Origin: Clostridia bacterium
GTDB lineage: Bacteria > Bacillota > Clostridia > Oscillospirales > CAG-272
Length of the DNA stretch: 43,693 bases
Assembly (NCBI GenBank): GCA_017451545.1
Contig: JAFTOB010000068.1
Location: forward strand, 1-43,693
Direction: 5' to 3'
The notes beneath the pieces were generated by a model. The model worked only from the letters and a program-made list of their open reading frames with translations, was not told the DNA's origin and made no database searches. Positions 26,952-35,933 of the stretch are shown here, piece after piece; positions within the stretch are counted from its first letter, which is position 1, and every line of letters begins with the position of its first letter. The translations under genes were made by a program, and so were the position numbers.

Positions 26952-26980
26952 TTGACAAACGACAAAAGCTGTGATATAAT
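26952..26980 (+). promoter_or_regulatory. Promoter of the tRNA-Met/tRNA-Glu unit
   Basis: Perfect consensus TTGACA (26952-26957), 17-nt spacer, TATAAT (26975-26980) with TGTGA just before it. It lies 15 nt upstream of the mature tRNA-Met 5' end. Confidence 0.9.
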
Positions 26981-26994
26981 AGCAAAGCGCTTGT

Positions 26995-27071
26995 GGCGGA
27001 ATAGCTCAGCTGGCTAGAGCATCCGGTTCATACCCGGCAGGTCGTTGGTTCAAATCCGACTTCCGCTACCA
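26995..27071 (+). tRNA. tRNA-Met (CAT)
   Basis: 77 nt cloverleaf: acceptor GGCGGAA/TTCCGCT, D-stem GCTC/GAGC, anticodon loop TTCATAC (anticodon CAT), T-arm GTTGG-TTCAAAT-CCGAC, encoded CCA. Elongator type, since acceptor position 1 can form a G-U pair. A tRNA-Ile with lysidine-modified CAT is a less likely alternative. Confidence 0.93.
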
Positions 27072-27103: not shown

Positions 27104-27178
27104 GGCCCGTTGGTCAAGCGGCTAAGACACGGCCCTTTCACGGCTGTAACATGGGTTCGATTCCCGTACGGGTCACCA
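27104..27178 (+). tRNA. tRNA-Glu (TTC)
   Basis: 75 nt. Acceptor GGCCCGT/ACGGGTC, anticodon stem CGGCC/GGCTG, loop CTTTCAC (anticodon TTC), T-arm ATGGG-TTCGATT-CCCGT, encoded CCA. Depends on read-through from the tRNA-Met promoter. Confidence 0.95.
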
Positions 27179-27227
27179 AAAAAGAGCAGGAGCACATTCG
27201 TGCTCCTGCTCTTTTTTGGTGACCCGT
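27168..27227. terminator. Terminator hairpin extending into tRNA-Glu acceptor end
   Basis: Positions 27168-27195 and 27200-27227 are perfect 28-nt inverted complements with loop ATTC. The outer 11 bp of the left arm are the 3' strand of the tRNA-Glu acceptor stem plus discriminator and CCA; the inner part (AAAAAAGAGCAGGAGCAC and its complement) is an ordinary intrinsic terminator with a T6 run. Confidence 0.9.
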
Positions 27228-27600
27228 CGGACGAACACAACGCGTGCTTTTAAGCTTAGCTTGCAACCAAGTAAAACTCCACCGCACGCGTATGGGTTCG
27301 AATACCCCGCCCGGAGATCTGAAAGCTCGCTTTCAAGGCGAAGGGCGTGGGTATCATCGCCACCGGCGATATTCCCGTACACAACCTTAATTTTTATGAC
27401 ACCGAATGGTGTGCTTTTTCGTTTTTGGTGACCCGTCGGACGAACGGGGCGCGTGCTTTTAGGTTTATCTGAAAACCAAGAAAAACCTCACCGCACGCGT
27501 ATGGGTTCGAATACCCCGCCCGGAGATCTGAAAGCTCGCTTTCAAGGCGAAGGGCGTGGGTATCATCGCCACCGGCGATATTCCTGTACGTAGCTTAAAG
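27213..27600 (+). repeat. Two tandem 209-nt tRNA-Glu-linked cassettes
   Basis: Occupies the 500-nt gene-free gap between tRNA-Glu and the rubredoxin gene. Period 209 nt; the cores 27280-27380 and 27489-27589 differ at one base in 101. Each unit starts with TTTTTGGTGACCCGTCGGAC (inverted tRNA acceptor end) and has a GCGTGC..GCACGC stem pair. It then has a T-arm half GGGTTCGAATACCCC, hairpins GAAAGC/GCTTTC and ATCGCC/GGCGAT, and ends in ATATTCCCGTAC, like the other half of the tRNA-Glu T-arm. Short open frames across it are not convincing genes. Confidence 0.85.
27399..27419 (+). terminator. Small terminator ending first tRNA-Glu cassette
   Basis: ACACC-GAAT-GGTGT stem-loop followed by GCTTTTT. 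The same ACACC-GAAT-GGTGT core is used in the tRNA-Lys terminator at 35833-35846. Confidence 0.6.
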
Positions 27601-27639
27601 TTTCAAAGCGCAGTCGAAAACTCCATACTCTCGCCCCAA

Positions 27640-27870: not shown

Positions 27871-28383
27871 TCAGAGCACCAGCGAGGGCGCGGTGTATAC
27901 TCTTGCCGCCAGTTCCTGGTTAAGCATATAGAGACTTCTCGGATCGCTGCCGAAGAGCTCCATCTTGGTGATCATATCGTTGGCGTTGGTCTCCTCCTCA
28001 CCCTGCTCCTTGACGAACCAATCGAGGAACTGCATTGTGCGGAAGTCCTTGACGTCGTAAGCCGCAGCGTATATGTCGTTGATCAGCGAGGTCACGTACT
28101 CCTCGTGCTCAAGGCCTGCCTTCAGGACGTCCATATGGCACTCGAAGGTCTTATCGGGCTTGGCTATTGCCTCCAAAGTTACGGGCTGACTTTCATTCTG
28201 CAGGTACTGGTAGAAGAGCATTGCGTGGTCGCGCTCCTCCTGTGCCTGGATCATATACCAATTTGCGAAGCCGTCGAGGCCCTTCGCCTTGAAATAATTT
28301 GAAAAATCGAGGTAGAGATATGCCGAGTAAAATTCCTTGTTTATCTGCTGATTGAGAAGCTCGTGTACTTTTGCGTTCATCAT
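27871..28383 (-). CDS. Ferritin (non-haem, FtnA type)
   Basis: 170 aa, typical for bacterial ferritin. The four-helix bundle has ferroxidase ligands in NKEFYSAYLYLDFSNYF (Glu near 17), AQEERDHAMLFYQYL (Glu and His near 50-53), EHEEYVTSLIND and FVKEQGEEETNAND. No haem-binding Met of bacterioferritin is apparent. It oxidises and stores iron in the cytoplasm and protects from peroxide. AGGAG lies 8 nt before the first of two adjacent ATGs. Operon with rubredoxin; a CRP/FNR-like site sits in its promoter. Confidence 0.95.
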   Translation of the reverse strand: MMNAKVHELLNQQINKEFYSAYLYLDFSNYFKAKGLDGFANWYMIQAQEERDHAMLFYQYLQNESQPVTLEAIAKPDKTFECHMDVLKAGLEHEEYVTSLINDIYAAAYDVKDFRTMQFLDWFVKEQGEEETNANDMITKMELFGSDPRSLYMLNQELAARVYTAPSLVL

Positions 28384-28415
28384 TGTTTTATCTCCTTTTC
28401 CTTTGTTGTGATCAT

Positions 28416-28458
28416 AGTATACCACTTTTTAGACAATAAAATTGTGATATTTATCACA
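28416..28458 (-). promoter_or_regulatory. Ferritin promoter with CRP/FNR-type site
   Basis: Minus-strand extended -10 TGG-TATACT (box 28421-28416) with no good -35 at 17 nt. TGTGATATTTATCACA (28443-28458) is a perfect TGTGA-N6-TCACA palindrome, centred about 41.5 nt upstream of the expected start, where class II CRP/FNR activators bind. Confidence 0.65.
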
Positions 28459-35550: not shown

Positions 35551-35857
35551 GGCTTAAATGCACACGCCGGGGCCGATAGGTTGTGGATCACAAAAAAGAG
35601 AGCACACACCGAATGGGCTATAAGGTGAAATCAGGTTTGTCCTTTGCCCGGGAATCCGCCCTCTGCTTCGCTTCGGCGGCGGAATCCTCCGAGCCGTCCG
35701 TGAGCAAGCTCCCGACGTCTTCCGTCGGATTCTCGAACCCGCTGCGTGTGCGGATTCGTTTGCTTTGACTTTATGTATGGCTTAAATGCACACGCCGGGT
35801 TAGATAGGTTGTGGATCACCAAAAAAGAGGGCACACCGAATGGTGTGCCCTCTTTTT
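35551..35857 (-). repeat. tRNA-Lys-linked cassette and duplicated end segment
   Basis: 35551-35616 and 35779-35843 are ~65-nt direct repeats (about 90% alike) containing GCACACGCC or GTGCATTTAAGCC (minus) and GGTTGTGGATCAC. Between them, read on the minus strand, come GCACACGC, then CGGGTTCGAGAATCCG (35726-35741), a GAGCTTGCTC hairpin, and GGATTCCCGGGC (35657-35646), matching the tRNA-Lys T-arm halves. The order of parts is the same as in the tRNA-Glu cassettes although the sequences differ. Confidence 0.75.
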
Positions 35858-35868
35858 TGGTGATCCAC
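35811..35868. terminator. Terminator hairpin extending into tRNA-Lys acceptor end
   Basis: 35811-35837 and 35842-35868 are perfect 27-nt inverted complements with loop GAAT. On the transcribed (minus) strand the outer 11 nt are the acceptor 3' strand, discriminator and CCA of tRNA-Lys, and the inner part is a terminator with T6. Confidence 0.9.
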
Positions 35869-35933
35869 CCGGGAATCGAACCCGGGACACCTTGATTAAA
35901 AGTCAAGTGCTCTACCGCCTGAGCTAGTGGATC
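35858..35933 (-). tRNA. tRNA-Lys (TTT)
   Basis: 76 nt on the minus strand: acceptor GATCCAC/GTGGATC, D-stem GCTC/GAGC, anticodon stem CTTGA/TCAAG with loop CTTTTAA (anticodon TTT), T-arm CCGGG-TTCGATT-CCCGG, encoded CCA. Confidence 0.97.

Follow-up and report, generated by a model that had tools for sequence, protein, structure and literature searches.

The window, as the whole analysed stretch of 43,693 nt from the Clostridia bacterium assembly GCA_017451545.1 (contig JAFTOB010000068.1) is called here, contains a tRNA-Met gene (26995-27071) followed by a tRNA-Glu(TTC) gene (27104-27178, ARAGORN), and both are preceded by a promoter-like site of full consensus at 26952-26980. A ferritin-like gene (27871-28425, minus strand) adjoins the pair. 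The end of tRNA-Glu is part of a perfect palindrome, the arms of which (27168-27195 and 27200-27227) are 28 nt long, 100% complementary and separated by the 4-nt loop ATTC. The inner 17 bp (27179-27195 with 27200-27216) form a terminator-type hairpin, and the outer 11 bp are built from tRNA-Glu bases 27168-27178 (ACGGGTC-A-CCA) and their copy TGGTGACCCGT at 27217-27227. A sequence-only reading of this DNA had reported such an exact inverted repeat overlapping the tRNA end, with an inner terminator of about 17 bp and outer 11 bp that duplicate the tRNA, and both the position and the complementarity are confirmed. When 27110-27240 was folded, z was -11.4 and 0 of 200 shuffles were equally good. 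The inner hairpin looks like an intrinsic terminator by eye and was unlisted by a consensus scan, probably since its T-run sits inside the long stem; ordinary terminators of tRNA genes, by contrast, stop short of the tRNA.

The palindrome is the first part of a non-coding unit of about 209 bp, two copies of which lie behind tRNA-Glu (the earlier reading had seen this first part alone), and a 185-nt repeat of 89% identity joins 27210-27394 with 27419-27603. The unit consists of the tRNA end X (from the T-arm to CCA), the hairpin h1, the inverted copy I, the hairpin h2 and the direct T-arm copy D, the T-loop of which is split at TTCG^A by a conserved body of two hairpins (Pa and Pb). The features are as follows.

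27104-27178, plus strand: tRNA-Glu(TTC), the host gene, with X (T-arm to CCA) at 27151-27178 (ARAGORN, Rfam)
27179-27216, plus strand: h1, terminator-type hairpin with 17-bp arms and loop ATTC
27217-27227, plus strand: I, exact inverted copy of the last 11 nt of tRNA-Glu
27228-27236, plus strand: remainder of I, CGGACGAAC, ending in CGAAC, the complement of T-loop GTTCG (sequence, local alignment, fold)
27240-27291, plus strand: h2, hairpin ACGCGTGC..GCACGCGT (sequence, fold)
27292-27378, plus strand: D with body b, T-arm copy ATGGGTTCG..ATTCCCGT, T-loop split by Pa and Pb (body model R2, 106.3 bits)
27399-27412, plus strand: partly decayed terminator hairpin that opens unit 2
27426-27436, plus strand: I of unit 2, the identical 11-nt inverted tRNA-Glu end
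27501-27587, plus strand: D with body b of unit 2 (R2, 103.1 bits)
35858-35933, minus strand: tRNA-Lys(TTT), the second host in the window (ARAGORN)
35822-35857, minus strand: h1 of the tRNA-Lys element
35811-35821, minus strand: I of the tRNA-Lys element, TGGTGATCCAC, exact inverted copy of the tRNA-Lys 3' end
35648-35742, minus strand: D with a diverged body b behind tRNA-Lys (R2, 25.4 bits, E 0.0011)
35582-35591, minus strand: start of a truncated second unit behind tRNA-Lys, TGTGATCCAC (sequence)

The tRNA-Lys gene is thus followed by its own hairpin, its own I, a further hairpin and a T-arm copy, and because it has its own version of the arrangement, the tRNA-Glu palindrome is not due to chance. 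An Rfam search of the whole window at gathering score returned tRNAs only, with no match inside the element, and the element showed neither a standard target duplication nor a terminal repeat.

Units behind other tRNAs

The same anatomy is common to Glu, Lys, Gln, Tyr, Ser, Ala, Trp, Gly and Arg tRNAs, with host-specific I and host-specific D in many of them. The units often stand in tandem, and continuous perfect palindromes are seen at several loci. I often extends from the complement of CCA as far as CGAA(C), which is complementary to the T-loop, and in units with body b it mostly lacks the part that faces the 3' T-stem strand; D is the T-arm of the host, and its T-loop holds either an extra base or the entire body. 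In GCA_017451545.1, relatives of the unit lie behind tRNA-Glu(CTC) on another contig, tRNA-Gln(TTG), which has a 15-nt exact inverted copy, and tRNA-Arg(CCT), tRNA-Met being less clear, and most remaining tRNAs have ordinary terminators or other hairpin arrays.

The exact-palindrome pattern occurs at 5 places in 4 of 146 genomes, GCA_017451545.1 included, versus 0 for a reversed-pattern control, and an exact core pattern matched three stretches in named genome contigs. With a looser palindrome pattern, matches came from 10 of 196 family genomes, and inspection by eye showed a hairpin separating the arms in 9 of these; in the phylum sample it matched 17 of 398, and the hairpin was visible by eye only in GCA_017451545.1. 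The outer 11 bp, randomness of which in relatives the sequence-only reading had named as telling against it, are non-random there, and its proposed search of relatives for inverted acceptor copies found them by pattern in the 9 family genomes. Among tRNA genes with enough downstream sequence, 56 of 146 distinct ones have at least 8 nt of their own inverted end within 75 nt, at loci picked largely by model R1, which favours such cases. Strict exact own copies follow 3 of 33, 0 of 35 and 2 of 35 tRNA genes in three genomes (genes with at least 60 nt downstream, as far as the fetched loci allowed), and foreign tRNA ends match in 136 of 10432 comparisons of this test, so exact copies are uncommon per gene and degenerate units more frequent. 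Since R1 also scores a plain tRNA with its terminator (194 of 196 genomes at E up to 0.1), its counts are not usable as frequencies.

The body itself was followed with R2, a structure-based covariance model built from 5 copies, and with a relaxed pattern, used instead of a strict one that matched 3 places. The element is restricted to one clade: R2 finds it at E up to 0.01 in 34 of 196 relatives, 30 of which belong to its own family (GCA_017451545.1 included), and in 1 of 398 genomes of an even phylum sample, namely GCA_017451545.1. Over 56 chosen sources, R2 gave 85 matches in 79 distinct rows, loci L104 and L192 containing the same places twice. Fifty of these matches follow a same-strand tRNA at a distance of up to 900 nt, and the other 35 comprise some reverse-strand shadows or contig ends and some copies beside displaced tRNA pieces; the spacing is fairly uniform, with 37 bodies 74-143 nt after the tRNA. 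Body b (Pa, Pb) has GTTCG and AGCT(C/T)GCT in 19 of 19 aligned copies beside Glu, Gly, Gln, Tyr, Arg, Ser and Lys tRNAs, and its loops AGCTCGCT and TTCGCAT are conserved. Body a (CCGG(T/G)GG .. TGACCGA) occurs at 6 places (Glu 2, Ser 2, Ala 1 and one with no tRNA in reach) and body c at 4 places in 2 genomes, both in the same arrangement as body b. A phage collection yielded 30 matching records, and among the 20 matches listed the tRNA part alone was covered; in an Rfam search of 20 loci, only tRNAs and one Gut-1, the latter outside the element, passed the gathering score.

Other repeat families were noticed behind tRNAs as well. In GCA_017451545.1, arrays of small hairpins with a spacer that is mostly GTGAAATA lie behind tRNA-Tyr, Ala-CGC, Arg-ACG, Leu-TAA and His (L038, L052, L043, L060, L031), and a similar array in L104 (214-297, minus strand) scores 56.3 bits, above the Rfam Gut-1 gathering score. 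A second array family of the same genome has a spacer like TATATCATCA and stands behind Gln-CTG, Arg-CCG, Ser-GCT, Trp and Val tRNAs (L051, L059, L055, L039). A third repeat (ACTTTTTCACTCTTCACT .. AGTGAA(A/T)AG), found behind Gln-TTG, Ser-GGA and Ser-TGA in G001 and behind Trp in G086 (L251, L254, L259, L263), is common to different genera.

Fit to the host tRNA and turnover among congeners

The match between unit and host was measured on 36 first units taken from the R2 matches, each with a tRNA within 150 nt, duplicates dropped, from 21 genomes and 14 tRNA species. The test is fair for I because I is no part of R2, with the reservation that some of these loci were first fetched through R1, which rewards I. 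I matches its own tRNA by at least 8 nt in 18 of the 36 units, compared with 35 of 1042 foreign comparisons, and the own tRNA beats every foreign one in 22 of 36; roughly half of the first units have a poor I or none. D is tailored as well, since 147 of its 180 stem pairs are identical to those of the host T-stem. Sixteen more are changed on one side and still paired, 14 are changed on one side and broken, and of those changed on both sides 2 are paired and 1 is broken. Compensatory change is therefore rare, and D is more a copy than a separately evolving stem. On average 9.00 of 10 letters of D match the own T-stem and 5.25 a foreign one, and without species resembling the training set the values are 9.09 (n=23) and 4.86. 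The acceptor strand after D is mostly lost, at least 5 of 7 bases being kept in only 11 of 36 units.

The similarity of the bodies is independent of the identity of the tRNA. Among 74 copies that remained after shadows and identical rows were dropped (copies without a tRNA being left out of the pairs), identity between different genera is 0.54 for the same tRNA and 0.53 for different tRNAs; it is 0.48 between the tRNAs of one genome and 0.65 for the same tRNA within a genus (n=9). Presence also differs between congeners: in G001, Lys-TTT and Arg-CCT are followed by an ordinary terminator and Gln-TTG has no such unit behind it, gain or loss being read here from the comparison of congeners.

The unit can also stand on the other side of its host. 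At tRNA-Ser(CGA) of G163, G056 and G086, a 5'-side unit is made from the inverted tRNA 5' end and split at TTCG^A, and a similar 5'-type unit lies on a contig end of G166, without a tRNA; the use of TTCGA in the inverted tRNA-Ser(CGA) means that a CCA end is not the requirement. In G086 this tRNA has a body-b unit on either side, both pointing outward (L195:6870-7283).

Recombinases were met only beside displaced copies and were absent near the intact units of the window. A large serine recombinase (L190:6116-7816), a tyrosine integrase (L204:172-1230) and a resolvase-like gene (L193:7779-8660) mark islands that lie between a tRNA or its fragment and an existing h1-I-h2-D, and they apparently entered later, the unit being the older at these places. 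The Y1 transposase family (PF01797) is present in 44 of 172 genomes and in neither GCA_017451545.1 nor its three congeners, a phyletic pattern that does not track the element and rules this enzyme out as its mover. The scan of this one protein family and the island genes beside copies pointed to no mobilising enzyme.

Origin and meaning of the unit

The explanation that we place first, with our confidence about evenly divided for and against it, is a hairpin insertion element in the T-loop, around which the tRNA is rebuilt and the copies are kept exact by template switching. Let L and R be the parts of the tRNA end to the left and right of TTCG^A in the T-loop, divided between G and A. The order at the locus is then L, R-h1-R', L'-h2-L, Pa-Pb, R, where R' and L' make up I and the final L..R is the T-arm copy with the body inside it. 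The tRNA remains whole, its 3' end being provided by the left arm of the first hairpin. Insertion would take place at TTCG^A, the element moving among tRNA loci by means of a putative recombinase, and hairpin template switching during replication may create or restore the exact pairing of the stems and of R with R', so that the copy would keep up with the host sequence even if it served no function in the tRNA. The suggestion, made earlier from the sequence, of a mobile element that uses tRNA ends comes close to this, as the element lies behind many tRNAs; the accompanying choice between selection and recent duplication omits hairpin-templated rewriting as a third possibility. The element is mostly found beside a tRNA or tRNA piece, where a freely moving element need not be, and the conserved loops of the body could reflect an RNA function and so point against insertion.

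A bolder proposal, which we regard as doubtful, is a new class of non-coding mobile DNA that homes to TTCG^A, rebuilds the tRNA and copies its end into its own arms; such copying might proceed by hairpin-primed or tRNA-primed DNA synthesis, every copy being tailored to its host gene. REP/BIME, the palindrome-associated elements (PATE) of IS200/IS605 and RAYT are short, non-coding, hairpin-based, repeated and intergenic, and so is the present element, but it differs from them in being tailored to a host tRNA and fixed at its end, in a genome with no Y1 transposase. Integrative elements with tyrosine or serine recombinases insert at tRNA 3' ends, leave the tRNA intact and carry a direct copy of its 3' part, as D does here; in contrast to these, the present element is about 200 bp long, has no genes, includes an inverted copy too and has an interrupted T-loop in D. 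Units of this size have no room for a gene, hence the lack of a recombinase gene between the direct copies. The primer-binding site of LTR retroelements consists of TGG and the complement of a tRNA 3' end, which I resembles; no LTR was seen, and we treat this as a likeness only. Such an element was not found in a literature search with narrow terms, outside which most subscription journals lie, and it is apparently undescribed, which is no claim that it is absent from print.

How the stems vary bears on a purely mutational origin, in which template switching at strong terminator hairpins turns X into X, inverted X and X again, arrays recombine, and nothing is mobile or functional. In the R2 alignment, which was fitted to the model so that pairing is inflated, 91.9% of cells are paired and double changes are seen in 26 of 28 pairs, with 404 double-changed cells compared with 122 when shuffled and 31-73 when slid. 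G-U pairs make up 9 of 1166 paired cells (0.8%) in the outer part of Pa and Pb, where A-C mismatches occupy 13 cells, and 14 of 404 in the inner part of Pa, compared with 175 of 2297 (7.6%) in the acceptor and T stems of tRNAs in the same data; the value of 1.5% for h1 is partly built in by the filter for near-perfect stems. Covariation without G-U steps is unusual for RNA under selection, and the combination of strong covariation with almost no G-U points to palindrome dynamics at the DNA level. Tandem inversion duplication and quasipalindrome template switching leave forward, inverted and forward copies around hairpins, with perfect stems free of G-U steps, much as X, I and D are three copies with the middle one inverted. 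The order X-h1-I-h2-D, the tandem arrays, the continuous perfect palindromes and the interchange of ATTC and GAAT loops in otherwise alike hairpins agree with this origin, and PMC8794818 proposes template switching as a source of perfect stems and predicts covariation without G-U steps from it. Even so, we consider the purely mutational account unlikely, for the units extend beyond local copies, and a conserved body with conserved loops, shared by unrelated loci of many genera behind 14 tRNA species and placed identically in the T-loop, is left unexplained.

Selection on RNA, in which the unit, as a tRNA mimic or an antisense element, would pair with the 3' end of the tRNA and so control its maturation or serve as a decoy, appears improbable. 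It would fit the covarying structure, the conserved loops and the match of I to its own tRNA, and the predicted folds of the tRNA-Glu transcript agree with it in part: if transcription stops at the U-run, the cloverleaf and h1 would form, and if I is transcribed too, the tRNA would give up its acceptor and T arms. The sequence-only reading had suggested that the copy might compete with the acceptor stem and make maturation switchable. RNA folding predicts a misfolded tRNA for read-through transcripts only, and weakly supports a switch at the tRNA end; the poor host match of I in about half of the units (it is missing in many), a congener without a unit behind the same tRNAs and the scarcity of G-U pairs weigh against it. 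The D acceptor strand, moreover, is mostly lost, the 5'-side unit mimics the wrong strand, and no promoter-like site was found within the element region of the window.

Genomic islands are well known to dock at tRNA ends, and recombinase islands abut several elements (L190, L204, L193), but that the units are remnants of such islands, with I and D as decayed attachment sites, is very improbable, since the islands are later arrivals at pre-existing units, the spacing behind tRNAs is fairly uniform, and neither the inverted tailored copy nor the body is explained by them.

If the insertion element is real, its repeated settling in tRNA ends, with the tRNA still functional and the arms of the element tailored, would represent a new mode of coexistence between DNA and essential genes. 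Its loci would also offer a natural series of paired sequences for testing template switching against selection in keeping hairpins perfect, a question raised in PMC8794818.
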